This document shows, piece by piece, positions 15,007 through 50,559 of a DNA stretch of 51,754 nt (positions are counted from its first letter, which is position 1; the number at the start of each line of letters is the position of its first letter). The notes under the pieces were generated by a model that searched no databases, had not been told where the DNA came from, and saw nothing but the letters and a program-made list of their open reading frames with translations. Origin of the DNA: Porphyromonadaceae bacterium (GTDB lineage: Bacteria > Bacteroidota > Bacteroidia > Bacteroidales > UBA12481); assembly GCA_007280905.1 (NCBI GenBank), contig QYQM01000078.1, positions 1 through 51,754 of the forward strand. Reading direction: 5' to 3'. The position numbers and the translations under genes are program-made.

Positions 15007-16233
15007 ATGATTATGAAAATCACATATAAACCCATTGCAATACTGATTACTTTGATTATTTCCTCTTCCTGTGTAAAGGAAAATATGATAAAGGTTGATC
15101 CCGGTTTTATTGTGTCATTTCAACGGGATGGAATGACGGATGCATTTGCAGGAAGGACGTTTTATGTCATACCCACCGGGTCAGGAGAGTTTCTTACACT
15201 GTATAGTGGAACCGCAGGACATGTGTGGGGCGAAGCCGGTGCAAAAGGGATTGATCTTAATAAAGCCGATTCAATCGGAGTAACTTACAGCGCTGCCGGT
15301 AAATACAATTTGTCATTAGTTTCAACCAGTTCAGGCGATTTTGGGAAAGAAGTTTCGCGTGAAGTAAAAAGCGTTGAGATCAATACGGTGGACGATCGGA
15401 ACTCATTTACCGTATTCAATATTAATGGTGCTGATGGCGTAATTTCGGCAGATAACGAAATCAGTTTCAGTGTTCCTGATATTGTGACCGATTATAATTT
15501 CATAGCTGTGTATGGACTGCAATCTGACCAGGCAAAAGTTTATGTAAATGGAATTGAGCAGACCTCCGGAGTAACTGTAAATGATTTTTCTCAACCCGTA
15601 ATTTACACAGTCAAATCAAATCAAGGCACTGAAAAACGATACACGGTGAAATTCACCACCTTCCCGGCATCCAGTGAGAAAAAAATTACAAAGTTCGTTT
15701 TGGGAGTGGGCGGCAATGGTGAGATTGGCGAGGTAGATGAAGCGGGCAAAACGATCAGCCTGACTGCAAATTATGGAACAAATCTGGCTGCTGTCAGGTT
15801 GATACTGGAGTCGTCATACGCCAGTAAGATTTATATAAGCAATGCACTCTATTCCGACAGGAAGAACTATAACTTATCGGCCACGGGATTGAAGACAATA
15901 AAAGTTATTGCACAAAACAACTCGGAAGCAGAGTACACTATAAACTCGCTGGCAAGCTACCCTGTTTTGGCTTTTACTTTCGCAGGATTGGTGCCGGCTC
16001 CGGAAGGAGTGATTAATGTTGCTGCGAAGACTATTTCAGTAGATGTTTTGAGAGGAACAGACATTACCAAACTGGCAGCTTTATGGACTGGTTCCGTTGG
16101 GAAAGTGACCATTGGAAATGCTGTTCAAACCAACGGAGTGACAGTTAACGACTTTTCGGCACCAATTACCTATACCTTCTATAAGGGAACAACAGCAGGG
16201 GACAAATACAAAGTAACAGTTAACGTGAAATAA
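15007..16233 (+). CDS. SusE/F-position surface lipoprotein with repeated Ig-like (DUF5018-type) domains
   Basis: A 408-residue lipoprotein: hydrophobic leader, then ISSSC with C22 as probable lipid site and K-E at +2/+3, consistent with surface export. The N-terminal part (about 30-125) looks PKD-like. Three beta-sandwich repeats follow (about 128-220, 225-310, 318-408). The first and last share the motif QT-x-GVTVNDFS-x-P (near 184 and 373), typical of DUF5018-like repeats in PUL lipoproteins. Proteins in this slot bind glycan at the surface and help SusCD. The ATG two codons in (15013) is an equal start. Binding specificity cannot be read from the sequence. Confidence 0.75.
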   Translation: MIMKITYKPIAILITLIISSSCVKENMIKVDPGFIVSFQRDGMTDAFAGRTFYVIPTGSGEFLTLYSGTAGHVWGEAGAKGIDLNKADSIGVTYSAAGKYNLSLVSTSSGDFGKEVSREVKSVEINTVDDRNSFTVFNINGADGVISADNEISFSVPDIVTDYNFIAVYGLQSDQAKVYVNGIEQTSGVTVNDFSQPVIYTVKSNQGTEKRYTVKFTTFPASSEKKITKFVLGVGGNGEIGEVDEAGKTISLTANYGTNLAAVRLILESSYASKIYISNALYSDRKNYNLSATGLKTIKVIAQNNSEAEYTINSLASYPVLAFTFAGLVPAPEGVINVAAKTISVDVLRGTDITKLAALWTGSVGKVTIGNAVQTNGVTVNDFSAPITYTFYKGTTAGDKYKVTVNVK

Positions 16234-28938: not shown

Positions 28939-31482
28939 ATGAAAACAAAAATTATTAAAAGAAGCAGTTTTTGGGGAATCGTTTTTTTGATTCTCCAGCT
29001 TAATACTAATATCGTAGCTCAAAATAATCTTGCAGTTTTCCAACCTGTAAAAAGCATAAAACCTTTAGAAAAAGTAATTCTATGTTGCTCTGCCAATGGC
29101 ATTTTGTTGGTGAAAGATGCAAAAAACAGAGAATACATGAGAACAGCTGCCGACAAAAAAGTAGCAATAACCGTGGCTGGCGCTGCGGGCTGGCACAAAG
29201 CTGTTTTGTTGGATAAATGGGATAATCCGATTGACAGCACCTCTTTTCTTGTTGAAGCAAAAACTAATATTGATGATGGAGGAAAAATTGGAGAAATGTT
29301 TCAACTTTTTCATCACGGGATGTTGGTTGATAACAGCGATGGCTTTAGCCAGGTGAATTGGAATGGCAAAACCTATCGCTTTTTCGTGCCTTGGGTGCTC
29401 GACAATAACAATACCGGTAAAGGCATGAAGTATTTCAGCCCGTATAGTGGCGATATGGTTGATCTCTTTCGCCAAACCCAGAAACCGGACGGAATGATCT
29501 GGAGCTTTGTGAATGCCGATAAAAATGGTTTCTATTACTACGAGACAGCATACGGTCCAATAAATTTTTTCAGAAAAGACCGCGATGCCTGGTTTGTACG
29601 TCAACCGGTGGAGAATCATGTGGAATACAATTTTGTAAATATGATGTATCAGCACTGGAAAGCCAGCGGCGACAATGCCTGGATGAAAACAAATTTAGAG
29701 TGTGCTTCCCGTGCGCTCGATTATTGTGTTACAGATACCATTCGCTGGTCGAAACGCTTCGAATTGCTGAAACGGCCCTACTGCATTGATTCGTGGGACT
29801 TTCAGGTAGATGATGAATATACGCCAGCCACACCTATCAGCCCAACAATGGTTGTTGTACCCGAGAAAACCAAATACGGAATATTTTTCGGCGATAATAC
29901 CGGATATTTTGATGCCTGCAACCAATTGGCTGATATGCTTGAATTTGCAGGGCAACATGATAAAGCAAAAAACTACCGTGATCGTGCCAGCGATATTCTG
30001 AAGCGTTTAACTGCATTGGCCTGGAACGGAAAATTCTTCACACACTTTATTGATGAAGACCCAACAGTTAAGAGAAATCTTGGAGTTGATGAAAAGTCAC
30101 AAATAGCGCAGGGGAATATGTATTCGATTAATCGGGGCCTTTCGCATGAAATGAGTATCGCGATCATTAAAACCTACCTCAACCTGAAAGAAAACCTGCC
30201 CGTTGGTTCACCCGGCGAATGGTATGCGATTTATCCGCCCTTCGAAAGAGGATTTGGCCCGCATAACGAAAAATGGCAATATATGAATGGAGGCGTAGCC
30301 GGGCATGCTGCCGGAGAACTTGCCCGCGGTGCCTATGAAAATGGGTATGAAAATTATGCTTCGGATATTCTAAATCGCTTAACCAATCTTGGAAAGCAAA
30401 CTGGAAATCGAGTATGGTTTTCGTTTACCGGTTCAATTCCTCCACCTCCGCCAGCAGCTAATTTCAAAGCTGTCGATATTTCAGGCATTGCCAACATGGA
30501 TATCTGGGACAAAGGTGGAAAAGGAACGTTTCCATGGATGAATGATAGTCGCGCAGGAAATGATATGCGCGGACTGCCAACAGGCCCGAAGGTTTTTCAA
30601 AACATCCCGTTCACGGTTCTTGATCCTGGAAAAAATCAAAGGCGTGTGGCCATAGCCTTGTCCGTAAAACCCGGCTTTCCGGAAAAAGTTGAAGTTCTGG
30701 TCAACGACATAGCAGCCGCAATCTATCTTTTACATTCCTCATCTGACAACATGCCGGCAACCATTGCAGGTGCCGTTACCTTTCAGTATGCCGATGGTAC
30801 GAGTCATTCGCAATACCTTAAGAAAGGGGATGATATCACTAACTGGTGGTTTTCCGACCTGGAAAATGATCATGCAGGAGTTGCCTGGTCGGGACCAAAT
30901 CCTGTCAGTGCAAAAGTCGGCGTTTGCCGGGCTGCTGTCATCAATCCGAATCCATCAAAAAAAATTGCAAAACTCATTTTTCATGCACCACTCGAAGGTG
31001 GAATTTATGCCTTGCTTGGTATTACCCTGGCCGATCGTGTTCCATACGTGAAACCGAAAGTTGAATCCTTTGGCGGTCCCGACAACTGGGCAGCAGCAAA
31101 TGCAATGGCAGCATTGGTTGAAGGATTAGCTGGAGTCAAGGATAATGGTCTTGCTTATAGCCATGTCGCTCTTTCACCAAGGTGGACTTCATCAGGCACT
31201 GATTCCGTAAATGTTACCGTTCATTATCCGGCTTCAAACTGTTATGTGGCTTATCAATATCAACATTTTCCTCAAAAAAAGGAAATACTGATAACTCTGA
31301 CCGGGAGCGGCGAAGATATTGACATGCACTTGCTTCTGCCCGAAGGCACAACATCTGTAAACTCAGTAGCTTCGGGCGGTAAGGCTGTACATTTTGCAAC
31401 TTCCAAAATGGAGAACTCGCAATATGTTGATTTCAAATTAGATCTGCCTAAGGCAATAGATGTTATGATCAAGTACAATTAA
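28939..31482 (+). CDS. Six-hairpin glycosidase-like protein, family unassigned
   Basis: An 847-residue exported protein (signal peptide about 1-27, ending NIVAQ). A beta-rich N-terminal domain (about 28-115) is followed by an (alpha/alpha)6-toroid-like region (about 115-500) with the aromatic- and acid-rich motifs WSFVNADKNGFYYYETAYG, KRPYCIDSWDFQVDDEY and HNEKWQYMNGGVAGHAAGELA. An inserted beta-sandwich (about 515-690; FQNIPFTVLDP, VALS-like KVEVLVND) resembles the small sandwich found next to such toroids, and a C-terminal beta domain closes the protein. The layout suits a glycoside hydrolase or lyase of the six-hairpin superfamily (as in GH63, GH65, GH78, GH105), but no family signature was recognised. 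Likely acids are in the IDSWDF and HNEKW motifs. Confidence 0.6.
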   Translation: MKTKIIKRSSFWGIVFLILQLNTNIVAQNNLAVFQPVKSIKPLEKVILCCSANGILLVKDAKNREYMRTAADKKVAITVAGAAGWHKAVLLDKWDNPIDSTSFLVEAKTNIDDGGKIGEMFQLFHHGMLVDNSDGFSQVNWNGKTYRFFVPWVLDNNNTGKGMKYFSPYSGDMVDLFRQTQKPDGMIWSFVNADKNGFYYYETAYGPINFFRKDRDAWFVRQPVENHVEYNFVNMMYQHWKASGDNAWMKTNLECASRALDYCVTDTIRWSKRFELLKRPYCIDSWDFQVDDEYTPATPISPTMVVVPEKTKYGIFFGDNTGYFDACNQLADMLEFAGQHDKAKNYRDRASDILKRLTALAWNGKFFTHFIDEDPTVKRNLGVDEKSQIAQGNMYSINRGLSHEMSIAIIKTYLNLKENLPVGSPGEWYAIYPPFERGFGPHNEKWQYMNGGVAGHAAGELARGAYENGYENYASDILNRLTNLGKQTGNRVWFSFTGSIPPPPPAANFKAVDISGIANMDIWDKGGKGTFPWMNDSRAGNDMRGLPTGPKVFQNIPFTVLDPGKNQRRVAIALSVKPGFPEKVEVLVNDIAAAIYLLHSSSDNMPATIAGAVTFQYADGTSHSQYLKKGDDITNWWFSDLENDHAGVAWSGPNPVSAKVGVCRAAVINPNPSKKIAKLIFHAPLEGGIYALLGITLADRVPYVKPKVESFGGPDNWAAANAMAALVEGLAGVKDNGLAYSHVALSPRWTSSGTDSVNVTVHYPASNCYVAYQYQHFPQKKEILITLTGSGEDIDMHLLLPEGTTSVNSVASGGKAVHFATSKMENSQYVDFKLDLPKAIDVMIKYN

Positions 31483-33964: not shown

Positions 33965-34684
33965 ATGAGTACAATTAGAGAAATTGCCAAGATGATTGAT
34001 CACTCAATCCTGAGTCCGCTTTACACCGATGAAGATTTAATTAAAGAATGTGCAATTGCAAAACAGTATGATGTGGCTTCGGTTTGTGTAAAGCCGTATG
34101 CAGTGAAACTAGCTGTTGAACAGTTAAAAGGTTCAGATGTATTGGTTGGTTGTGTTATTGGTTTTCCAGCCGGAAATAGTGCTATAACTGTAAAAGCATT
34201 CGAAACAGAACAGGCTTGCAAGGACGGTGCTGTTGAAATTGATATGGTAATAAATATTGGAAAAGCATTACAGGAAGATTGGATTTATCTTGAAGAAGAA
34301 ATAAAATCAGTTGTCGACACTGCACACAAATACAACTCTATTACCAAAGTTATTTTCGAGACAGACTATATAACTAAAGATCAGCATAAAATTAAGTTAT
34401 GCGAAATTTGTTCAAAAGCAGGAGCAGAGTTTGTTAAAACGTCTACGGGATTTGGCTTTGTGAAAGGCGCTGATGGGAAATTCTCCTATACCGGTGCTAC
34501 TGCCCACGATTTGGCATTGATGCGTAAATATTCCGCTCCCAATGTTCGGGTAAAAGCATCAGGTGGGGTACGTACACTTTCAGACCTTTTAAAATTCAAG
34601 GAAATTGGCATATCACGTTGTGGTGCTACTGCCACCGCTGCGATGCTGGAAGAAGCAAAAAAATTATTTGGCGCATCCGTTTGA
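33965..34684 (+). CDS. deoC: Deoxyribose-phosphate aldolase
   Basis: A 239-residue cytoplasmic class I aldolase with no signal peptide, unlike all its neighbours except the GPH carrier. The Schiff-base lysine is K158 in FVKTSTGF and the second active-site lysine K197 in VRVKASGG; KMIDHSILSP and EIDMVIN are also DeoC-typical. It reversibly splits 2-deoxy-D-ribose-5-phosphate into acetaldehyde and glyceraldehyde-3-phosphate. It begins 19 bp after the esterase gene. A nucleoside enzyme in a glycan locus is unusual: it may handle a deoxy-sugar phosphate released from the glycan, or simply be hitch-hiking. Family assignment is firm; the PUL role is not. Confidence 0.93.
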   Translation: MSTIREIAKMIDHSILSPLYTDEDLIKECAIAKQYDVASVCVKPYAVKLAVEQLKGSDVLVGCVIGFPAGNSAITVKAFETEQACKDGAVEIDMVINIGKALQEDWIYLEEEIKSVVDTAHKYNSITKVIFETDYITKDQHKIKLCEICSKAGAEFVKTSTGFGFVKGADGKFSYTGATAHDLALMRKYSAPNVRVKASGGVRTLSDLLKFKEIGISRCGATATAAMLEEAKKLFGASV

Positions 34685-34726: not shown

Positions 34727-37700
34727 ATGAAATTGATAAATAAGCTTGTCTACCTCATCCCTTTTCTTTTTTTTTCAATTTCATCCTATTCACAGGATGT
34801 AAATTGGACCGCACATTGGATCATACATCCAACTGTGCAGCCTCAACAACATGCCGTTATACTCTTCCGAAAAAGTTTTGAACTTTGGGCGAAACCTGAA
34901 AAATTTGTGGTTCATGTTTCGGCTGATAATCATTATCGTCTTTTTGTAAATGGCAGCTATATTTCCCGCGGTCCGGCCAGAGGGGATATATCGCATTGGT
35001 TTTACGAAACCATCGATATTGCCGGATACCTTCAGGCCGGAGAAAATACCATCGCTGCCGAAGTTGTCAACTGGGGGCCCAAGCGCTCATTCACCTTCTT
35101 TTCGCAAATGTCCTCTTTTATCATGCAGGGCCATTCGGATGCTGAGAAAGTTGTTAATACTGTTGGCGGAAGCTGGAAGTGTATGCAGAATCTTGCCTGC
35201 AACCCTAAGATGGTGGATTGGATGACCGACCGCAGCACGATCGATTTTGGCTTATATGTTGGTAATCCGACGGACAGTATTCGCGCCGATTTGTATCCCT
35301 GGGGCTGGGAAAAAACCGACTTCGACGATACAGTCTGGCTTCCGGCCTCCTGGGGTGATCTGGCCGGAGGGCGCGATCAGCAAGGCGGGGGCGGTATCCT
35401 GTTTGGCGGCGGAAAACTGCTCATCCCAAGAAGAACCGGATTGTTGAAAGAGACCAAAGTGCCATTTTCCGGTATCCGCAGAGCAACCGGTATCGAAATC
35501 AATGATAATTTTCTGAAAGGGATTGGAAGCCTGACTATTCCAGCCAACAAGAATATCAGCATCCTGATTGATCAGACCGAAGAAACGATGGGATATCCCG
35601 AAATGACTGTCAGCGGAGGAAAGGATGCCCGCATTCAGGTGATGTATGCCGAAAACCTCATCGTAAAAACCAAAGCGCCCAAAGGAAACCGCAACAACAT
35701 TGAGGGCAAAAGAATGGTTGGATTGAAAGATGTGTTCCTCCCTGACGGCGGCAAAAACCGCTTGTTTAAGCCGACGTATATCCGTGCATTCCGTTTTATT
35801 CAACTGGACATTGAAACCCGCGGCGAACCGCTGGTCATTGAGAATTACACCCATGTAGCCTGTACTGCCCCAATTGAACTGAAGGCCAGATTTGAAACCA
35901 ACAATTCTTTAGCAGACTGGATGATGCAGGCAGGATGGCGGACCATCAGCATTTGCGCGCAGGACATGCTTCTTTCGGATGCTGCCTACGAACAAATGCA
36001 ATACACTGGCGATTCCCGGGTGCACAACCTTTCGCTGCTAACCCTTTCGGGCGACGACCGCTTAACCCGCAATGCACTGATCCAGTTCGATCAATCGCGC
36101 ATTCCGGAAGGCCTCACCTACGCTTGCTATCCCAATCCGTTCCACCTCATCATTCCTTCCTACTCACTGATCTGGATCGATCAGGTACATGATTATATGC
36201 TCTGGAAAGACGACAAAGCGTTTATTTCCGGATTTGAACTTGGTATTTACAGTGTACTCGACTGGTTCGAAAAACGCATTCAACCCAATGGTTTGCTCGG
36301 CAAGATAGATTGGTGGGGCGCTCTGGCCTGGCCCCGACATTACAAAAACGGAGAATCGCCAACCGTGTACGAAGGGAATAACACGCTGTACTCGCTGCAT
36401 TATGCTTATACACTTCGCCATGCAGCCGATATTTTTGAATATCTCGGAAAAAATGCACAAGCCCGTGAGTATCGCAGCAGAGCTGATCAGATTTGTACAG
36501 CCGTTAATTCGTTTTGTATAAATAATGACGGATTTTACACTGAATCCCCTGATAATAAAAAGATTAGTCAGATTACAAACCTGTTAGCCATACTGGCAGA
36601 AGCAGCCACTGGGGATGAAGCCAGACAACTGATGAAACAACTGCTTGAACCGAAAGACTGGTTTGGCCAGGTCGATCTCTTCCTGCATCTTTACCTGTTC
36701 GAAGCCCTGAATAAAACGGGTTTACAGGAGTATTTTATGCAGGAGACTTCAGAGTGGCAGCTGATGATGGACCGCGCCTTAACCACATTTGTCGAGGTTC
36801 CGCTGGAATGGGGCGAAGAAAATCAGCGTTCCGAATGTCACCCGTGGAGCAGTGCCCCGAATTACTTTTTCTTCCGGACGGTGTGCGGCATAAACCCTCT
36901 ATCTGCCGGTCACAAAACGGTGGAAATCGCTCCTGCCTTTGGTGAGCTGACCCAAATCAAGGCTGTATATCCGCATCATTCGGGGAACATCGAACTTGAC
37001 CTGAAACGCACCGGTACTAAGGTTGAAGGCACTGCCACTGTTCCAGCTGGCATGCAGGCTAATTTTGTTTGGGGAGACCAGAGAATAGACTTGAAAGAAG
37101 GAAAACAGACTGTAAGACTCGAGGGAAATAGGCAGCAACCGTTGATTAAGCGGTTCTTTGCTGAAGGCAGTTTCTGGAACCAACCTCTGGGTGATAATTT
37201 AGAAATTGATCCTCAGAGCGACTATTATATCAGTTTGCTTAAAAAGGACCATAGCCACCAGAATTTCGGCATCAATTTAAACAACTACACCATTCCGATT
37301 TATGAGGTTGACAGCACTGTTCCTCTTATTAAGGTTGGAAATCATCCGGGTTTCAATTTCCGCCACCATCCTGATTTTGACAAGATCGGCGTGCCCATCC
37401 CGCCCGGTTTCAAACCCTCCCCGGGAAGTGATCAGCATGCAACTATCATCGATTGGAAACGGAAGCTTGCCTGGGACATGTTTCTTGCCGATACAGACAG
37501 CACAGGTCATTGGGTTTCCTGTACCGGTGTGATTGTTCCCCTGGATGGTTCGGGGGTTTTCAATAAAACTGACTTTGCCGTTAAGGATGATGAATCCATT
37601 CATCAATATGGCCCCAGCCGTGCGGCCGGTGTGCCTTCGTTTGCCGGCACGATCATGTATGATGAAATTATGGCCGGTGAAATCAGGCACAAACTGAGTT

Positions 37701-38101
37701 GTGCCCTTCGCTTTGTCGCATACAAAGAATACGTGTATCCGGCCATCTGGACGGATGGCAATTTTAAAGGCGGTGTTCCCGAAGGATCCATTATTCAATT
37801 GGACCCCCGGCTCGACCTGTCGAAATTCCATCTTTTACCCGGCGAACTCACCGTGGCCAAAGCCCTGCAGAAATATGGGATGGTAGTGGTTGACTTTGCT
37901 GCGGGCAATGTTTTATACGGCGAAGGCTTATGGATATATCCTGATAAATCGTGGAAAGGCTTGCTGCGGGATTGGGATGGAGGAATAAGCAGTATTCCAC
38001 TCGAACATTTCCGTGTACTTAAAAACCAGAATGTTCAGAAAGGCGGCGACCGTACCAAGGACTTTTTTCAGGAATCATTGAAAGGATGGGAGAAAAATTA
38101 A
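34727..38101 (+). CDS. GH78-like alpha-L-rhamnosidase fused to an unassigned C-terminal domain
   Basis: An 1124-residue exported protein (signal peptide ending SSYSQ, about residue 22). The N-terminal beta-sandwich domains (about 23-390) have the rhamnosidase look: WTAHWI, LFRKSFEL, ADNHYRLFVNG, GPARGD. The (alpha/alpha)6 domain (about 390-730) holds DAAYEQMQYTGD (D418, E422), the counterpart of the DCPxRExxGWxGD acid motif of GH78, plus SECHPWSSAPNYFF near 703. A C-terminal rhamnosidase beta domain ends near 800. From about 805 to 1124 comes an extra domain (EGSFWNQPLG, IPPGFKPSPGSDQHATIID, GSIIQLDPRLDL, ALQKYGMVVVD) that is not part of GH78 and that I cannot name. Expected activity is release of L-rhamnose from pectic or other glycans. 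Confidence 0.8.
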   Translation: MKLINKLVYLIPFLFFSISSYSQDVNWTAHWIIHPTVQPQQHAVILFRKSFELWAKPEKFVVHVSADNHYRLFVNGSYISRGPARGDISHWFYETIDIAGYLQAGENTIAAEVVNWGPKRSFTFFSQMSSFIMQGHSDAEKVVNTVGGSWKCMQNLACNPKMVDWMTDRSTIDFGLYVGNPTDSIRADLYPWGWEKTDFDDTVWLPASWGDLAGGRDQQGGGGILFGGGKLLIPRRTGLLKETKVPFSGIRRATGIEINDNFLKGIGSLTIPANKNISILIDQTEETMGYPEMTVSGGKDARIQVMYAENLIVKTKAPKGNRNNIEGKRMVGLKDVFLPDGGKNRLFKPTYIRAFRFIQLDIETRGEPLVIENYTHVACTAPIELKARFETNNSLADWMMQAGWRTISICAQDMLLSDAAYEQMQYTGDSRVHNLSLLTLSGDDRLTRNALIQFDQSRIPEGLTYACYPNPFHLIIPSYSLIWIDQVHDYMLWKDDKAFISGFELGIYSVLDWFEKRIQPNGLLGKIDWWGALAWPRHYKNGESPTVYEGNNTLYSLHYAYTLRHAADIFEYLGKNAQAREYRSRADQICTAVNSFCINNDGFYTESPDNKKISQITNLLAILAEAATGDEARQLMKQLLEPKDWFGQVDLFLHLYLFEALNKTGLQEYFMQETSEWQLMMDRALTTFVEVPLEWGEENQRSECHPWSSAPNYFFFRTVCGINPLSAGHKTVEIAPAFGELTQIKAVYPHHSGNIELDLKRTGTKVEGTATVPAGMQANFVWGDQRIDLKEGKQTVRLEGNRQQPLIKRFFAEGSFWNQPLGDNLEIDPQSDYYISLLKKDHSHQNFGINLNNYTIPIYEVDSTVPLIKVGNHPGFNFRHHPDFDKIGVPIPPGFKPSPGSDQHATIIDWKRKLAWDMFLADTDSTGHWVSCTGVIVPLDGSGVFNKTDFAVKDDESIHQYGPSRAAGVPSFAGTIMYDEIMAGEIRHKLSCALRFVAYKEYVYPAIWTDGNFKGGVPEGSIIQLDPRLDLSKFHLLPGELTVAKALQKYGMVVVDFAAGNVLYGEGLWIYPDKSWKGLLRDWDGGISSIPLEHFRVLKNQNVQKGGDRTKDFFQESLKGWEKN

Positions 38102-38111
38102 CCATAACACG

Positions 38112-39647
38112 ATGAAGAAAAATATTTTAATTTTAGTATTAGTATTGCTTGTAATTCAAGTAGTTGATGCAAAAGAGTATAATATTCTGGATTTTGGTGC
38201 TGTCAGGAATCAATTATCGACTTTTGCGATTCAAAAAGCAATTGATGCCTGCAACGAAGCCGGTGGCGGAACGGTTGTTGTTCCCGCTGGAATATATATA
38301 ACAGGAGCTATTATCCTCAAAAGTAATATCAACCTTTATCTGGAGCAAGGTGCAGAGCTCAGGTCAAGCGAAAAAATGAATGATTTTATTGTCGGTTCCG
38401 AACGATATGGCATGATATTTTGCCAGGATGCTTCCAATATCAGTATAACAGGACAGGGCATTATTAATGCCATGGGATCCCAGTTTTATGAACCGGATAA
38501 AAATCATATCGAAAATAGTGGTTTGGGCGTCAGAAAAGATTACGATAAAATGCTGACCAGGCAGAAGGAAAACTATCTGCCTGAAGGAGTTTTTTTCACG
38601 GATGGGCCCATAAAGCGTAAACCAAGGCCGGGAATGACAATCGTTTTTTTTCATTGTAACCAGGTCACAATTAAAGATATAACAATTAAGGATACTCCGG
38701 TCTGGGCAATACGATTCGGTTATTGCGAGGATGTGCTGGTAGAAGGGATTTCACTTTTAAATAATCTATTGATCCCAAATAGTGACGGGATTCATATTAC
38801 TGTTTCCCGGAATGTCAGGATTGACAATTGCGAAATACGGGCAGGTGACGATTGCATAATTGTTACCGGTTTTGCAAGAATCGAAGATACTCCAGGTTTT
38901 GATTCCAAAGAACAGGACAAATATACTCACGGGAATAAAACCATTTACGCTGAGAATATCCAGGTAACAAATTGTCACCTGCAATCCCGATCATCGGCTA
39001 TCCGAATTGGTTATGGACAACACCCTATCCGCAGGTGTATCTTTACTGATATCGTGATTTCTGAATCAAACAGGGGGATAGGCGTTTTTGCACACGATGC
39101 ATCAAATATTGAAGAATTGATTTTCTCCAATATCATTATTGAAACACGCCTTCATAACGGAATCTGGTGGGGAAATGGAGAACCAATACATTTATCAGCT
39201 ATTTCAAGGTTTCCGGGACAATTTGCAGGTCAGATAAAGGATGTGCAATTTAACAATATCACTGCAACCGGAGGACAAGGAATTGTGATTTACGGAGACA
39301 AAGAGAGTCACATGGAAAATATTCAATTCAATAATGTTCAACTTCGCTTACTGAAAGGCCTTGAGACGATGAGTAAGGGAGGCAACTTCGATTTGCGTCC
39401 GACAGCGATCTATGAGAAACAGATATTTGAACATGACATACCCGGTCTTTTTGCACAATATGTTGATAATCTCTCCATTCGTAACTTTGGTTTAAAATGG
39501 GGAGAAGGTCTGCCGGAATTCTTTACACATGGAATTGAATGCCTTGAAGTGAAAGATTTTTTAATCGATGGATTTGTTGGATCGGCTAATCCGAACTCCC
39601 CAAAGAGCCAAAAATTATTCATGGAAAACTGCACGTTCAACCAATAG
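38112..39647 (+). CDS. GH28-like polygalacturonase-type beta-helix enzyme
   Basis: A 511-residue exported protein (signal peptide about 1-20, ending VVDA). It starts like GH28 enzymes (YNILDFGAV, IQKAIDACNEAGGGTVVVPAG) and has the right-handed beta-helix with the acid trio: D225 in PNSDGIH and D246-D247 in AGDDCII. The usual GHG histidine loop is replaced by RSSAIRIGYG and the RIK segment by NRGIGVF, so the substrate subsite differs from classical polygalacturonases. GH28 enzymes hydrolyse alpha-linked galacturonate backbones or rhamnogalacturonan. Ten bp separate it from the rhamnosidase gene, which fits joint action on rhamnogalacturonan. Confidence 0.8.
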   Translation: MKKNILILVLVLLVIQVVDAKEYNILDFGAVRNQLSTFAIQKAIDACNEAGGGTVVVPAGIYITGAIILKSNINLYLEQGAELRSSEKMNDFIVGSERYGMIFCQDASNISITGQGIINAMGSQFYEPDKNHIENSGLGVRKDYDKMLTRQKENYLPEGVFFTDGPIKRKPRPGMTIVFFHCNQVTIKDITIKDTPVWAIRFGYCEDVLVEGISLLNNLLIPNSDGIHITVSRNVRIDNCEIRAGDDCIIVTGFARIEDTPGFDSKEQDKYTHGNKTIYAENIQVTNCHLQSRSSAIRIGYGQHPIRRCIFTDIVISESNRGIGVFAHDASNIEELIFSNIIIETRLHNGIWWGNGEPIHLSAISRFPGQFAGQIKDVQFNNITATGGQGIVIYGDKESHMENIQFNNVQLRLLKGLETMSKGGNFDLRPTAIYEKQIFEHDIPGLFAQYVDNLSIRNFGLKWGEGLPEFFTHGIECLEVKDFLIDGFVGSANPNSPKSQKLFMENCTFNQ

Positions 39648-44941: not shown

Positions 44942-45970
44942 TCAAATTTGGACATTATTGGGTTTAGTGGCTACATCAAAAACCAAAATCTTTCCATCCC
45001 CCAGTTTTGTTTCTAAGGTATTCAAATGTCGGCATAGCTGAATCTGGGCGGTCCGGTAGCTTTTCCGTTCCAGGGGTTCCAGCTTTACTGTGACAGTGGT
45101 TCTGGTTGTTCTTATCCATCCTTTACCTTTTATGATAGCCTCTAATACGGGTATGGTATCGCGGTTATCAGGCACATAATTAAATATTTCAATTAGTTTT
45201 TTCCGGCTATTCCATACAAGGGCTTCGGACAAATCCCACCAAATTTTTCCATCTGTTGAATAGGTCTTGTATGTTTCGCCGGTTACCTTTTCTAATTCAG
45301 TAAATTTGGGTATCGCTTCGAGGATAGTTTGTTGCGTTTGCAATTCCTCTTTTAAGGAAGATAGTTTTAATTGCAATTTGTCCCGTGTTGTATTTTTGCG
45401 TAAAACACCGGATTTATCAGTAGTTGTGTTAATTTTCCCAAGACCTTGTTCGCACTTTTTGATTTGGTTTTTAATATTAGCTATTTGCTTTGTCGCGGCT
45501 GTATGGGCGGGGTTTTTTATTTGCTGATCTTGACTTTCGCGGCGTAGGTCAAAAGTCGGATTATAGTGCATGCCCACCCTTTTGTTCATGTATTTAAACG
45601 TGTTCTCATTGCTGCCCCAGCGGTTTAACATGGCCAGGGCTACTTCTGTCACGGGAGATTCCTTATCGGTGGTAACTATTGCAAAGCGATGGTTTTCTGA
45701 CATTTTGAAATATACAATTCGCCTCATTTTTATCTGGTTCCCTTTATTGTCTTTATAGGTTTTCTCATCCTCGGTAATTCTATATTGCTTCTTTTGCCAG
45801 GTTAATTGGTGACAAAATGCGCTTTCTTCTATTTCATACAGTTCTGATTCATCGCTGAATTTTTCCCAGGTCACAATTTTAAAGGGTTGTAGCTCACAAA
45901 AGTTGTCCACTCCCCAAATCTCCCGGTCGATGGCGATCATCGGAGCGATCTCCAGATTAAGGCTTTCCAA
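44942..45970 (-). CDS. DDE transposase, C-terminal part (split frame)
   Basis: 342 residues from a TTG start, carrying the second acidic residue (D15, in MIAIDREIWG) and probably the final glutamate (SNENTFKYM). A coiled-coil-like stretch rich in K, E and Q lies near 150-225. It overlaps the upstream frame by 34 bp in a different frame. Adding one base at the GATTGG site (45969-45971, minus strand GATTTGG) would join both parts into about 680 residues. Either a one-base deletion inactivated the enzyme or the two parts are joined by frameshifting; no classical slippery A-run is present, so mutation is more likely. Confidence 0.7.
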   Translation of the reverse strand: MESLNLEIAPMIAIDREIWGVDNFCELQPFKIVTWEKFSDESELYEIEESAFCHQLTWQKKQYRITEDEKTYKDNKGNQIKMRRIVYFKMSENHRFAIVTTDKESPVTEVALAMLNRWGSNENTFKYMNKRVGMHYNPTFDLRRESQDQQIKNPAHTAATKQIANIKNQIKKCEQGLGKINTTTDKSGVLRKNTTRDKLQLKLSSLKEELQTQQTILEAIPKFTELEKVTGETYKTYSTDGKIWWDLSEALVWNSRKKLIEIFNYVPDNRDTIPVLEAIIKGKGWIRTTRTTVTVKLEPLERKSYRTAQIQLCRHLNTLETKLGDGKILVFDVATKPNNVQI

Positions 45971-46983
45971 TCCTCGTGGATTTCCTTGACCGTGCTTACG
46001 ATATCGGCCTTGCCATCATAGATGTCGAAATAGGCTACCCGTCCGCTTTTGTCGTGCGCGTATATGGCTGTTACTCCCGGCATTGCCATGCCACGTTGGG
46101 TGAACCATCCCTTGTGTACTTTTTCTTTTCCATAATAGGGTATAAAATGGCCATCGATAAATAGATTAAAAACACCCACGATACCACGCAATATCTGGTG
46201 CTTAAAAAACGCTTTTATTGTTGTTTTGCTGGACTCTTTTGTTTGGGTTACATAATCATGTATCCATTTCCATAATGCAGGTGCTGATGGTAATTTATTT
46301 AATCCCAGCAATTTACCAAATTCCTTTTTGTAAACCGTTTTGAATTGCTCAATCGAAAATATCCGGTTTATCTGCATCATGGCAAATAGAAAAATTACAA
46401 TCTTACTTTCGCCTATATGCTTGTTGAAGAACTTGTTGATATCGTAATAGTTGTTAAACATCGGCCAAAACAAGAAACTGCCTGCATACCTGTTTTCCTC
46501 AAAGGCGTGTTCTTCCAGAAAAAATTCTTTGTCCGTGGGCTGGATCTGATTTTCTGTACCCTCGTCCTGAAAACTAATGCACAATTCGTGTTTCTGCTTT
46601 TCCTGCTGATTCGCCTTATTTTCTTCTTCTAACTCTCTGGCCTTGTTTCCGGTGAAGCGCTTGGGGTTTTTCTTCCAACTATCTTTCGTGTTGTTGACCA
46701 AACCTTCCGCGCCGCGCTTTTGATAGGTTGCTATCCAAGTGTCTATGCTCTGCCGGGATATTCCCAACGCATCAGCCAATTTCTCTTTTCCAACGCTGCA
46801 CCTCTCAACCAAATCAATGACTACTAAACGCTTTTCAATAGGTGGGTCTATCTTGGCGACTTTCTGGAGTTGGCCTTTATGGTATATTTCTACTAATTCT
46901 TTTGACTTTACCTTGATGGCATAATGCTTGCCTATTGGTTTTATTTGGTCGTCAGCCTGTGAATCGTCAAATAGTGTCGACAT
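45937..46983 (-). CDS. DDE transposase, N-terminal part (split frame)
   Basis: 348 residues. A helix-turn-helix lies near 55-90 (EKLADALGISRQSIDTWIATYQKRG), then a glutamate/lysine-rich linker, and the start of the catalytic core with the first aspartate D277 in NLFIDGHFIPYYG, followed by KGWFTQRGMAMPG. The frame ends soon after KEIHEDW, where the second part begins in another frame. Alone it lacks the second and third catalytic residues. A good promoter pair lies directly upstream at 47002-47035. Confidence 0.75.
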   Translation of the reverse strand: MSTLFDDSQADDQIKPIGKHYAIKVKSKELVEIYHKGQLQKVAKIDPPIEKRLVVIDLVERCSVGKEKLADALGISRQSIDTWIATYQKRGAEGLVNNTKDSWKKNPKRFTGNKARELEEENKANQQEKQKHELCISFQDEGTENQIQPTDKEFFLEEHAFEENRYAGSFLFWPMFNNYYDINKFFNKHIGESKIVIFLFAMMQINRIFSIEQFKTVYKKEFGKLLGLNKLPSAPALWKWIHDYVTQTKESSKTTIKAFFKHQILRGIVGVFNLFIDGHFIPYYGKEKVHKGWFTQRGMAMPGVTAIYAHDKSGRVAYFDIYDGKADIVSTVKEIHEDWKALIWRSLR

Positions 46984-47001
46984 TTGTTTTTACTTTTGCC
47001 A

Positions 47002-47035
47002 CAAAGATAAATGCAAAATAATTAATAAATTCAAA
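47002..47035 (-). promoter_or_regulatory. Candidate transposase promoter
   Basis: On the minus strand TTTG (47032-47035) and TATCTTTG (47002-47009) stand 22 bp apart, a full match to TTTG/TAnnTTTG with a slightly long spacer. It is about 19 bp upstream of the transposase ATG, so the leader would be very short. Confidence 0.4.
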
Positions 47036-47111
47036 AATTTCGCTTGGAATCCTCAATAATTATCACTATATTAATGTTATGGCCAAAAGCTATGTCCAAT
47101 TATATCGCATT

Positions 47112-47142
47112 TTTGACGAATGGCCCAATTTCCTTATCTTTG
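47112..47142 (+). promoter_or_regulatory. Outward-facing promoter at the insertion sequence's right end
   Basis: On the plus strand TTTG (47112-47115) and TATCTTTG (47135-47142) are exactly 19 bp apart, a perfect match to the Bacteroidota consensus. It lies just inside the right inverted repeat and points out of the element. Transcription would begin near 47150 and leave the element, heading toward the IS4-family insertion and the 194-residue gene. Confidence 0.55.
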
Positions 47143-47255
47143 CGGAGGTACTAAGATTCGATTTTAAGAAGTCTGAATATATGTACAAACAAAGATAAAA
47201 AGAACTTTGATTAATAAAATGCTATTAATCAAACTTTATATGATTGAAAACAGTA

Positions 47256-48667
47256 CTGTCCGGTTATTAGTCCCACAAACTCAATTGGTTAGAAAATTCG
47301 GAATTATTCGCATTTAATACCAAATCGTCAAATAGCTCATTCACAGGCATTTTCTCGAAAATACAAAATTCTAATACTTGCGAAATCGTATGCAGACTTT
47401 GTTTTATTTGCAATTTCGGTTTGATTATTGCCAATAAAAGGTACACGCAAACTGCTATCCAGATCTGGGTATAGACAGCGTTGCGGGAAGTTCCATAGAA
47501 GGACTTGATTCTCAGGTGCTGCTTTATCCACCGAAAAAATAATTCGACTTGCCAGCGTTCTTTATAAAGCAGAGCTACCATGAGGGCCGATATGTTGAAG
47601 GCATTCGTCAGAAAGACAAAGTGCCTCTTGTTCTCCGTATCCCAGAACTTTACCCTACGAAGGGGAGCCGGATAGACTTTGGAGGAATTTGCCCCTGCCA
47701 GGACGATCGTCTGGTCGCAACGAACGCCGGTGTTCTTATCAACAATCGCCGCCTTGATTCTTTTGAAAGACAGGTTGGTTTTTGCCCGGGTGACGAAAAA
47801 GGCACCTTCTGTAACAAATCGGTAGAGACGTTCAAAATCAACATATCCCCGATCCATCAGGTAAAAGGCACCGCTTTCCAAAGGAAGGGTATCCAAAATA
47901 TTAACATCATGGCACAAACCATCAGTCAGTTTGATAAAGGTGGGGATCGATCCCCGGAGATCCATCAGTACGTGTGCTTTGACCGCACCTTTCGCTGCTC
48001 GGAAGCGGGCCCAGGGAAACAGGGACAGACACAAGTCGATGGTGGTACTATCGAGTGCGTAAACCATATTCTTCAAGTCCAGGGTAAAACCGGAATCTTG
48101 CAGGTTCAGCTTTCGGGCCTCGGGTATGAGTATTTGAGCAAAATCCGCATAGATCCGCCAATCCCGTTGTTCATTGGCGTCCGCTAAAGTTGAATGGGGT
48201 ACTTTTTTTCGGATACCGGAATGATAAAGCTTATTGGAAACAGCTTCGAGACAGTTCTCTATATCACGCAAGCTCTTACGGCTCGTCAGTTGGGCAAAGC
48301 TCATAACCAGGAACTGCTGCCGGCAATCGAATGTCTGCGCTTTATAATCTCCGCTATATCGGGCAACACATTTGTCAAACTCATACCAGGGTAGAAACTC
48401 CATCAACTGGGCAAAAACCGTCTTTTCTTTGTTCATTTGCGAAATTTTGATCACAAAGATCTCAGGGAAAGACAAAGCCACACTGAAATCGATGACAAAA
48501 AGAGTCATGAACCCAGAAAATCTGCGATCTAGGGCATCATAATGAACTGAGGTTTTTCTAACTTTCATCAATTTTAAAACGATTTCAAATCGAAAAAACG
48601 CTGAACACTGTTAAACGAACATTATATCAAGCAGTTGTAACTATATTAAAACTCAATAACCGGACAG
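47256..48667 (-). mobile_element. IS4-family insertion sequence
   Basis: Ends are CTGTCCGGTTATT (47256-47268) and its exact reverse complement (48655-48667), giving 1412 bp. One transposase gene fills it on the minus strand, and its stop codon lies inside the left repeat. No clear target duplication was found at the ends. Confidence 0.85.
47267..48436 (-). CDS. IS4-family transposase (DUF4372 + DDE domain)
   Basis: 389 residues from the ATG of MNKEKTVFAQLMEFLPWYEF; the frame extends 45 codons further upstream, but this start matches the usual beginning of the family. The N-terminal DUF4372-type domain (VFAQLMEFLPWYEFDKCVARY) is followed by the DDE core: first Asp in YALDSTTIDL, second in YLMDRGYVDF, and the IS4 signature Y(2)R(3)E(6)K in YKERWQVELFFRWIK. 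All parts are intact, so it may be active. The long antisense frame over 47549-48187 is a shadow. Confidence 0.92.
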   Translation of the reverse strand: MNKEKTVFAQLMEFLPWYEFDKCVARYSGDYKAQTFDCRQQFLVMSFAQLTSRKSLRDIENCLEAVSNKLYHSGIRKKVPHSTLADANEQRDWRIYADFAQILIPEARKLNLQDSGFTLDLKNMVYALDSTTIDLCLSLFPWARFRAAKGAVKAHVLMDLRGSIPTFIKLTDGLCHDVNILDTLPLESGAFYLMDRGYVDFERLYRFVTEGAFFVTRAKTNLSFKRIKAAIVDKNTGVRCDQTIVLAGANSSKVYPAPLRRVKFWDTENKRHFVFLTNAFNISALMVALLYKERWQVELFFRWIKQHLRIKSFYGTSRNAVYTQIWIAVCVYLLLAIIKPKLQIKQSLHTISQVLEFCIFEKMPVNELFDDLVLNANNSEFSNQLSLWD

Positions 48668-48698
48668 CACTGGCATTAACATTAAGAATTATTGACGG

Positions 48699-49283
48699 AT
48701 GAAAACAATCTTTAAAATAAAGCCATGCCTATTATTGATTTTATTAATAGGTACTATACAAATGAGGTCACAAACAAGTGATTCATGCAAATGGATACGA
48801 CCTGTTAGTTGGAAATATGTTAAAACCCATGATATTAAAGATAGTTCTATCTTAACTAGATACGGAACATGGGACTATGGCTATGGCTTTCTAATTAAAA
48901 AGACTGAAGATAGTACTAATTGCATTTTTAGTACAGGTCGTTTCCAGGGTGCTCCTGAAGATCTGTTTATATTACCCTCGGGTAATTATTCATTTATGTG
49001 TTATCCAACACCTTATGGAACATACACACGTGAGACCTGGTGGGCAAAAATCACCATAACAAGAACAGGAGAAAGTTATTTTAACGAAAATTTAAGACCC
49101 GGGAATTATTACAAAATAGTTTTAATATCAACCGATCACCAACAAACTTACCATGCAGAATTACGTAATATTGGAAAGGAAGAAATTATTAAACCATTTA
49201 AGAAAGATAGAAATTTACGAATCACCTTACAGTCTGCAGAAATGGTAGCCCTGATAGCAGCTCTCTTTTTTCTTTTGAAATAG
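48699..49283 (+). CDS. Hypothetical secreted protein between insertion sequences
   Basis: 194 residues, family not recognised. A signal peptide is likely (about 1-25; LLLILLIGTIQMRSQ). The middle is rich in Tyr, Trp, Gly and Thr (WDYGYGFLIKK, PSGNYSFMCYPTPYGTY) as in small beta-sandwich domains; the C-terminus is a short hydrophobic segment (MVALIAALFFLL) right before the stop, suggesting a membrane anchor or a truncated end. The gene is A/T-rich and lies between the IS4-family element and the next transposase. It could be cargo carried with the elements or a survivor of the original chromosome. Confidence 0.6.
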   Translation: MKTIFKIKPCLLLILLIGTIQMRSQTSDSCKWIRPVSWKYVKTHDIKDSSILTRYGTWDYGYGFLIKKTEDSTNCIFSTGRFQGAPEDLFILPSGNYSFMCYPTPYGTYTRETWWAKITITRTGESYFNENLRPGNYYKIVLISTDHQQTYHAELRNIGKEEIIKPFKKDRNLRITLQSAEMVALIAALFFLLK

Positions 49284-49311
49284 ATTTTCACGGTAAACAA
49301 TCGCAAGTATA

Positions 49312-50559
49312 TCAGGAATACGAAGCTCCCTCAAATATAATGTTTTTATTTCCAAGCCAGGGATAGTTTTGGCGACTAAATTTCTGCATGACTTCCAAGA
49401 TGAGAGGTAACTCCCGTTTCTTCTTCAGCTTGACGGTAAAGGTTTTTTCACTGATTTCAATGTCTGCCCCGTTCAATACAAATTTATCATAGAGTGTTTG
49501 GGCGGTAAGATGTTCGTAACGTCCCAGTTCCAGAGCAAACAGCCGATACAGGTTATGGGCGAGAATCGACATAGTGAGGTCAAAATCGACCTTAATGACC
49601 ATGGATGAGGAGACCAGGTTCAGGTGAAAGAAATCAATCTGTTCAGAGATCTTTTTTTCAACCAGCCAGCGGCGGGCATATTTCCTAACTATTTGTTCAG
49701 TAGTCAAATCGGTATCATTGGTAATGATAACAGCAGGTTTAATTTTTCCATTTCCCGTGATGGTGATCTGGCGGACATCCTGATCATAGCCGGCGAGAAA
49801 AACCATTTCATGGTATGCGCGTAAGGTCCTGTGCTTATTCCCGGTACATTCCACCTTGATGTTTGCCCAGCCCTTTTCGGGCAGTTTGGCGATCCGCTCC
49901 AGGATCAGTTTTCCCCAGCGGCGGATGGTGATAAACTTGACTTTATTCTCGTCGAGCTTCCGCAGGTTCTCATAGTTGGTGAACTTGCTGTCAAAAACAA
50001 CGTACCGGAGTGTGTCGTCCTTCTTTCGGGTCCCGGCGCGATAAAAGTCCAGGAACTCCATAACGGTATCGCTTTCACTTTTTTGCAATACGTTGGCGCT
50101 TCCATACTCAATCAGCCCGCTGTCGGGATCATGGGCCAGTACGGCCAACATGCTGCCGAGGGCCTTGCCGCGCTTTCCCGACCAGTTGTTTTCCAGATGA
50201 CTATCATCGCCCCAGTAAGGAATGGTTGTAAAATCAAGGTTAGCCGTGTCGTCCAGCAATCCAAACTTGAGCCATACCTGATGCAGTTGTTTCAGGAAAG
50301 AAAGGTTCATGCCGGGGGTCACCCGGTCGGAATACGAGGTGTACCAAGCTGTTTTCGGCAGCACATTCAGTCCGGCAAACAAACCCATTCCCCGATCCAT
50401 GCACCAGGTATCGTCGGAGGAATACCGGCGGCGGTTGGCCAGTTTCAGCGCCAGAAAACAAAGAATAGACGAAGCCTTGCTAATGACGGATGTGCCGGGA
50501 TAACCAGACTGTTCGATCACTTTATCTATCCCATAGCGTTTGAGGATCGGGATAAACAT
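49312..50559 (-). CDS. IS4-superfamily transposase, catalytic part (split frame)
   Basis: 415 residues with the DDE core: first Asp in NLDFTTIPYWGDDSH, second in YVVFDSKFTNYENL, and YARRWLVEKKISEQ giving Y(2)R(3)E with the last K of the IS4 signature not conserved. The frame is open upstream of its ATG back to about 50640, reading KVQIQAEKSVPLKFEPESFKSS cut short, so the ATG used here is not the original start. One base fewer in the AAAA run near 50638-50641 would fuse it with the helix-turn-helix part into about 580 residues. Confidence 0.75.
   Translation of the reverse strand: MFIPILKRYGIDKVIEQSGYPGTSVISKASSILCFLALKLANRRRYSSDDTWCMDRGMGLFAGLNVLPKTAWYTSYSDRVTPGMNLSFLKQLHQVWLKFGLLDDTANLDFTTIPYWGDDSHLENNWSGKRGKALGSMLAVLAHDPDSGLIEYGSANVLQKSESDTVMEFLDFYRAGTRKKDDTLRYVVFDSKFTNYENLRKLDENKVKFITIRRWGKLILERIAKLPEKGWANIKVECTGNKHRTLRAYHEMVFLAGYDQDVRQITITGNGKIKPAVIITNDTDLTTEQIVRKYARRWLVEKKISEQIDFFHLNLVSSSMVIKVDFDLTMSILAHNLYRLFALELGRYEHLTAQTLYDKFVLNGADIEISEKTFTVKLKKKRELPLILEVMQKFSRQNYPWLGNKNIIFEGASYS

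Follow-up and report, generated by a model that had tools for sequence, protein, structure and literature searches.

The gene at 34727-38101 of the window (the whole 51,754-nucleotide stretch of contig QYQM01000078.1, from a Porphyromonadaceae bacterium) encodes a GH78-type rhamnosidase to which a C-terminal domain, called here the tail, has been joined by gene fusion, and this tail belongs to what its sequences indicate is a widespread secreted family, found in bacteria and phages and absent from the curated libraries searched here. The strongest novel point of the analysis is how large this family is and how far it reaches. As to function, our judgement is evenly balanced on whether the tail is a second glycan-acting, probably glycan-cleaving domain whose predicted fold belongs to the MltA/GH45/expansin class. 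A function for the domain would put a name to many "hypothetical" secreted proteins and to a class of phage tail-type proteins, and its fusions with a rhamnosidase and with a GH26 domain provide a concrete starting point and indicate which polymers should be tried first.

A separate domain joined to a rhamnosidase

The fused protein starts with about 23 residues that, judged from sequence, form a plausible signal peptide, followed by the rhamnosidase part (residues ~26-799), a short linker and the tail (residues ~808-1124). The rhamnosidase part looks complete. Besides the two Pfam modules listed in Table 1, its N-terminal modules gave weak Pfam matches, under their cut-offs, and among solved structures rhamnosidase B (2okx, E 1.3e-39) comes closest to it, with residue 753 of the window protein as the last one aligned; this homology stops before the tail, which is a family apart. 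E572, D579 and E841 of 2okx aligned to E422, D429 and E690, and the position of D567 is occupied by S417, with D418 adjoining. These four 2okx residues are, we assume, the key acids of the enzyme, three of the four being conserved in the window protein.

Beyond residue 793, no Pfam match was found (E up to 1), and the tail matched nothing in Pfam, NCBIfam or the PDB sequences; a profile search of the PDB sequences with the family returned a single match, afoD, at chance level (E 0.45). An earlier sequence-only reading of this DNA had described an unassigned globular domain here, a description borne out by the lack of library matches and by an AlphaFold model of the tail with a predicted local distance difference test (pLDDT) value of 89.6. 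The start that it gave in words, about residue 805, was good, since the domain runs from residue ~808 (window 37148), but its coordinate, 36990, corresponds to residue 755, within the C-terminal module of the rhamnosidase. The four motifs it quoted are all present in the open reading frame; columns that are invariant in a 25-sequence alignment (A1) fall inside three of them, ALQKYGM being the strongest signature, while WVSCTGVIVPLDG contains none.

Comparison of gene structures establishes that the tail is a real, separate domain and the window gene a fusion. In locus L002, from a Prolixibacteraceae metagenome-assembled genome, both halves are separate genes of one locus, in the order 361-residue lipoprotein-like tail relative (85% identical), class II aldolase, 815-residue rhamnosidase and GH28. 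This rhamnosidase aligned without gaps to residues 11-799 of the window protein (78% identity), reaching its own residue 814, and three stand-alone relatives matched the tail across nearly its full length with 79-86% identity. Because the L002 rhamnosidase stops at window residue 799 and the stand-alone relatives match nearly the whole tail, the latter must be a domain that also occurs separately; because the relatives of the two halves are separate genes in L002, the window gene must be a fusion. The stand-alone relatives, which have secretion-type leaders, are also the kind of secreted protein that the earlier reading had suggested looking for. They begin with a lipoprotein-like leader (its type judged from sequence), and in the window fusion this leader is missing and about eight residues join the end of the rhamnosidase to the domain.

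GH78 genes lie beside the three closest relatives. In L003, a GH78 gene follows the stand-alone domain, and in L004 (4900-5960) a truncated GH78-like frame of 263 residues, which corresponds to the beginning of the 6-hairpin domain, shares 4 bases with the start of an intact stand-alone domain; there the rhamnosidase seems to have decayed and the domain to have been kept. The ratio of nonsynonymous to synonymous substitution rates (dN/dS) of the tail, measured against the three relatives, was 0.03, 0.04 and 0.08, with dS near saturation, and the domain is under strong purifying selection. No second copy of it was found in the host genome, nor any copy in the 11 other genomes of its family that were searched.

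A widespread family in bacteria

One scan of genome contigs yielded 27 loci with the domain, whose record titles name Bacteroidetes, Calditrichota, KSB1, Kuenenia, Nitrospirae, Acidobacteria, Pseudonocardia, Nannocystis, Alphaproteobacteria and others. Searches with alignment A1 found it in 50 of the 297 genomes from the phylum of a Bryobacterales locus (L018) and in 51 of the 296 from that of a Pseudonocardia locus (L009), that is, in about one-sixth of the genomes sampled in each phylum, some of the matches being short or weak. In the window's own phylum, it was found in 4 of 296 genomes with the same alignment and in 6 of 395 with a single protein as the query. Ten bacterial members compared with Pfam (limit E 10, with filters dropping most matches above about 0.1) matched nothing, PF06725, PF03562 and PF03330 included, and eight bacterial members together with two phage proteins gave no match in NCBIfam. 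Among the titles listed by literature searches, none names the family, a result that does not imply absence from print, the domain itself being nameless.

Where their start is clear, the leaders of the members are of the secretion or lipoprotein type. In many of these proteins no further domain is recognisable, and others carry Ig-like, dockerin-like, FG-GAP-like or repeat regions (leaders and region types judged from sequence). A second glycosidase fusion was met in genome G345 (L034/L035), where a 692-residue protein consists of a GH26 domain fused to a tail-type domain. In three Pseudonocardia loci (L009, L010 and L016), two copies of the domain occur as divergently oriented neighbouring genes.

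Phage members

The PHROGs entry phrog_17388, "minor tail protein", from Gordonia phages, contains the same domain as the window tail: it matched the window domain with E 1.6e-06 over a stretch of 98 residues, and a relative with E 1e-11. When a phage-record collection was searched by tblastn, 32 records were found with the window domain as the query and 69 with a relative, all of them from Gordonia phages. Among the predicted viral structures of BFVD, five matched the window model at E <= 0.001, the best named one being a Gordonia phage minor tail protein (E 5.1e-18). Three of these five are proteins of uncultured Caudovirales phages, and the domain is therefore not confined to the phages of Gordonia.

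In 12 phage records, the gene is named minor tail protein (5), hypothetical protein (6) or glycosylhydrolase (1), and the RefSeq versions of several of them use minor tail protein. The phage copies sit in proteins of 538-985 residues, and all 12 match the family profile (E <= 1.2e-49), two of them being already part of it. A scan of viral contigs with a pattern derived from A1, a single short peptide, matched 14 stretches, none of which encoded a relative, although phage records do hold the domain. In a 985-residue protein of Gordonia phage Mareelih (L129, 49-3006), a polysaccharide-deacetylase match (PF01522, E 1.4e-05) precedes the domain.

Conserved residues and a candidate active site

Conservation was counted over 81 distinct members. 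The starting set was the window and 74 rows, each a match at E < 1e-5 over more than 70% of the profile, after skipping L001, L036 and L034, which are copies of the window or of L035, as well as exact duplicates and rows with X; the addition of 12 phage proteins, two of them already in, gave 87 rows, from which those two and four fragments at locus ends were removed. E980, H988 and D1056 were found in all 81 members, D902 in 80 and H904 in 67, and D902, E980, H988 and D1056 are all kept in the 12 phage proteins. This set of carboxylates and histidine persists down to 20-25% identity. Its conservation suggests an active site, and its composition looks closer to a reaction centre than to an aromatic sugar-binding platform; two aromatic positions of the domain, W20 and F14, are also well kept (~95% and ~93%). 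The view of the sequence-only reading that the domain is something other than a simple binding module agrees, at the level of sequence, with this conserved acidic and histidine set, and the domain is not a listed carbohydrate-binding module.

An acidic residue occurs 9-13 residues after D1056 in 68 of the 81 members (E1066 in the window), against a background of 46% (814 of 1768) after any Asp of the same domains. According to a passage of PMC8562663, MltA uses one catalytic Asp, Asp308. The spacing of E1066 after D1056 is near that of Asp308 after Asp297 in MltA, the register of the others among the three conserved aspartates of MltA/3D enzymes being ambiguous, and that the acid 10-12 residues after D1056 might be the counterpart of Asp308 is a possibility, one for which related members do not count as independent. 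Because the acid is missing at this place in 13 members and the background amounts to 46%, the MltA mechanism is not simply transferable to the family. E980 and H988 stand eight positions apart in 75 of the 81 members, and most of the RlpA-type sequences compared have a D...H pair with this same spacing; the equation of the two pairs was dropped, as the profile alignment places a "PAxxxDG" stretch on that region of RlpA and MltA.

Predicted fold

The tail most likely adopts a split double-psi beta-barrel with an inserted beta domain, similar to MltA, the evidence from the models being consistent but weak. Barwin, expansins, GH45 and the lytic transglycosylases of this class have a common six-stranded double-psi barrel, as stated in a part of PMC11025796, and MltA builds a barwin-type barrel from both chain ends around an inserted 138-residue domain, in the account given by an excerpt of PMC4499186. 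The strands predicted for the tail fit such a plan, with short N-terminal ones, a beta unit up to about domain residue 144 and then C-terminal strands.

The AlphaFold model of the window domain, built from 25 sequences, reached a predicted template modelling score of 0.90. Its Foldseek list was headed by 3czb, a putative transglycosylase, with three more MltA-type entries among the matches listed. VIA-align also placed 3czb first (Z 5.4, 185 residues, root-mean-square deviation 5.8), followed by 2pi8 and 2pnw (Z 4.3). Seven of the ten rows with Z >= 3, including these first three, are MltA-type transglycosylases (five of them E. coli MltA entries), and they span most of the domain, from about residue 17 to 306; the assignment of 3czb and 2pnw to the MltA type is our assumption. 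Matches to the N-terminal domain of SAS-6 span only residues ~60-144. A second model, made from an acidobacterial member 24% identical to the window domain (pLDDT 84), gave seven VIA-align rows with Z >= 2, namely 2pnw (3.3, 165 residues), a diffocin baseplate protein (3.2), papaya barwin (3.0), PA4485 (2.8) and three others, the leaders being tied; PA4485 is, presumably, a barrel of this fold. The case for the fold class lies in the fact that both models lead to the same class, each single score being weak. The alignments behind the two models contain the same relatives in another order, and hence the models are not fully independent; nor are families unlisted in a structure comparison thereby ruled out.

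Comparison of profiles with hhalign gave E 0.018 for the C-terminal half of the domain against a set of 3D domains, a score that none of 60 column shuffles reached, and this result is suggestive at most of kinship with MltA. Six RlpA-type sequences passed the motif filter for these comparisons, and the MltA rows carried upstream translated sequence in the first comparison and were cut shorter in the shuffle test. An LPxG-like strand motif aligns locally with RlpA, and in many members a D-[NT]-G-[GS] stretch, lying in a late barrel strand after YGM, resembles the 3D motif.

Proposed function and its alternatives

The best single reading, which we regard as about equally likely to be right or wrong, is that the tail is a second catalytic domain, as the sequence-only reading had proposed. 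The resemblance of both models to the MltA/barwin fold class and the mostly carbohydrate-related scanned neighbourhoods make this proposal plausible. In the mechanism envisaged, the N- and C-terminal parts of the domain would together make up a double-psi barrel, a small beta domain being inserted mid-way, as in MltA, and the groove between barrel and insert would take up a glycan strand and be the place where D902, E980, H988 and D1056 gather; a passage of PMC8562663 places the glycan of MltA in the corresponding groove, between barrel and inserted domain. The domain would then cleave a glycosidic chain, or loosen it in the manner of expansins, most likely by acid/base catalysis involving these four residues. 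In the window gene, where the domain has been joined to a GH78 rhamnosidase from a locus of the same kind, the fused polypeptide could open a rhamnose-bearing pectin-type chain and also trim its rhamnose. For the relatives as a whole we suggest, more tentatively, a large unnamed family of glycan-cleaving enzymes with an MltA-like split double-psi barrel and an active site of its own (DxH from the inserted domain, E...H and D from the barrel), serving environmental bacteria on plant and other polysaccharides, with a rhamnosidase fusion here and a GH26 fusion elsewhere, and Gordonia phages on the surface of their host.

The narrower claim that the domain acts on the unit next to rhamnose fared less well. 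Its association with GH78, in the window and in the three closest relatives (one of them beside the truncated frame), alone speaks for it, and rhamnose is not the common theme of the family, other members lying beside GH26, GH10, apiosidase-like or deacetylase genes or within phage tail-type proteins. It is a reasonable first hypothesis for this fusion only.

Several observations weigh against a glycan-cleaving domain of this fold. Foldseek against the PDB gave no match at E <= 0.001 for either model, and the list of the second model was not headed by a barrel of the MltA/barwin class; structure-comparison Z values under 8 may mean merely a common arrangement, and the best values here were 5.4 and 3.3. 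The hhalign E values were 0.21 for E. coli MltA, 0.73 for a set of eight MltA sequences and 0.13 for six of RlpA, none of them significant, and shuffled columns did as well in 1 of 60 cases against RlpA (C-terminal half, E 0.069) and in 30 of 60 against whole MltA (E 0.42). The place of the catalytic Asp308 is not reliably acidic, as described above, and H904 is replaced by Ser in all 12 phage proteins, a difference between phrog_17388 and the window tail. Many acidobacterial and actinobacterial members adjoin Ig-like or repeat regions and not enzymes, and in L007 the gene closest to the domain among those scanned encodes a carbon-nitrogen hydrolase, a melibiase-like gene lying at a greater distance.

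Some of these points would suit a non-catalytic domain with the same barrel, glycan-binding or expansin-like, whose part would be only to hold the chain, or loosen it, for the rhamnosidase, GH26 or phage tail that it accompanies. The domain rides on other catalytic domains or, elsewhere, on Ig-like, FG-GAP-like and dockerin-like partners; binding alone is a frequent role of phage tail proteins; the position of MltA's catalytic Asp is not matched throughout the family; and expansins are non-hydrolytic members of the fold class, as a part of PMC11025796 describes them. However, with some 300 residues in two subdomains the domain is bigger than one would expect of a binding module, its most conserved polar residues are D, E, H and D (even with W20 and F14 also kept), and in many members this is the only recognisable domain of a secreted-type protein, so that we consider such a role unlikely, if still the most serious of the alternatives. 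The same dimensions set the tail apart from RlpA-type barrels, of about 100 residues. With RlpA, expansins, barwin and GH45 (PF03330 and kin), it shares the LPxG-like motif and the appearance of barwin and PA4485 among the few matches of the second model, but the RlpA profile comparisons were not significant and PF03330 was not matched.

A true lytic transglycosylase of the MltA/3D kind, acting on peptidoglycan and placed by chance on a sugar-degradation gene, is very improbable. MltA-type structures came first for both models, aligning with the predicted split barrel and inserted domain over most of the length, and the lipoprotein-type leaders and the D-x-G-G-like stretch are further points of likeness. 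Such an enzyme, which we take to be GH102 and to consist of PF03562 and the 3D domain PF06725, would differ from the tail family in several respects: neither the window domain nor ten relatives matched PF06725, PF03562 or PF03330, sequence kinship is not detectable by profile comparison, the invariant E...H pair and the DxH motif in the insert are peculiar to the tail family, 13 of the 81 members lack an acid where Asp308 would lie, and the scanned contexts are mostly those of polysaccharide degradation. It is also improbable, although somewhat less so, that the fold match is accidental and that the tail is an unrelated beta protein with another enzymatic role, such as a metal-dependent esterase or lyase using D902, H904 and H988. 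The Z and E values are weak and the conserved set is rich in Asp and His, which speaks for this reading, but models started from different sequences, albeit not fully independent, both led to the MltA type, and the second one also to the barwin type.

Genomic context and feature coordinates

The window contains a TonB-dependent receptor gene followed by a SusD-family gene, a hybrid two-component regulator, an AraA-type isomerase, an FGGY kinase and further genes for an apiosidase-like protein, a BD-FAE-type esterase, GH28 and DUF5107; these form a polysaccharide-utilisation region, one that we read as serving a pectin-like polymer. Neighbouring genes were scanned with Pfam at the window and at L002, L003, L004, L006, L007, L008, L029 and L034. 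The domain lies near apiosidase-like and melibiase-like genes in L029, GH10 and GH26 in L008, and YdjC and PIG-L deacetylases in L006. The theme of the neighbours is thus mostly carbohydrate, the specific sugar not being rhamnose throughout. Coordinates are collected in Table 1.

Table 1. Coordinates in the window of the fused gene, its parts and its neighbours.
Feature	Position	Strand	Details
DeoC-family aldolase, upstream neighbour	33965..34684	+	PF01791
Fused gene	34727..38101	+	1124 residues: signal peptide, GH78-type rhamnosidase, unassigned C-terminal domain; from the open reading frame and Pfam
GH78 6-hairpin catalytic domain	35885..36883	+	residues 387-719; PF17389, E 4.1e-16, over its cut-off
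Rhamnosidase C-terminal beta module	36887..37105	+	residues 721-793; PF17390, E 7e-08
Fusion junction / linker	37124..37147	+	residues 800-807, GNRQQPLI; in the place of the leader of stand-alone relatives; L002 rhamnosidase homology ends at 799
Unassigned tail domain	37148..38098	+	residues 808-1124; predicted split double-psi barrel with inserted beta domain
Inserted beta domain (approximate)	37307..37597	+	residues ~861-957; putative limits, from predicted strands and the MltA architecture in an excerpt of PMC4499186
DxH motif	37430..37438	+	D902, H904 (domain D105, H107)
E980...H988	37664..37690	+	domain E183, H191
D1056 in YGMxxxD motif, and acid E1066 ten residues later	37892..37924	+	D1056 = domain D259
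GH28 family, downstream neighbour	38112..39647	+	PF00295; a GH28 gene also follows the unfused L002 rhamnosidase

Two other proteins of the window gave neither a Pfam match at E <= 0.001 nor a PDB sequence match at E <= 0.01. One, of 847 residues, is encoded in the same locus at 28939-31482 (+); the other, of 408 residues, at 15007-16233 (+), directly after the SusC/SusD-type pair, a position from which it is probably a glycan-binding protein of the cell surface. Three genes with matches to transposase-type families at 45937-50559 (-), towards the right end of the window, one with PF21804/helix-turn-helix and two with PF01609, mark the edge of the sugar-use region.

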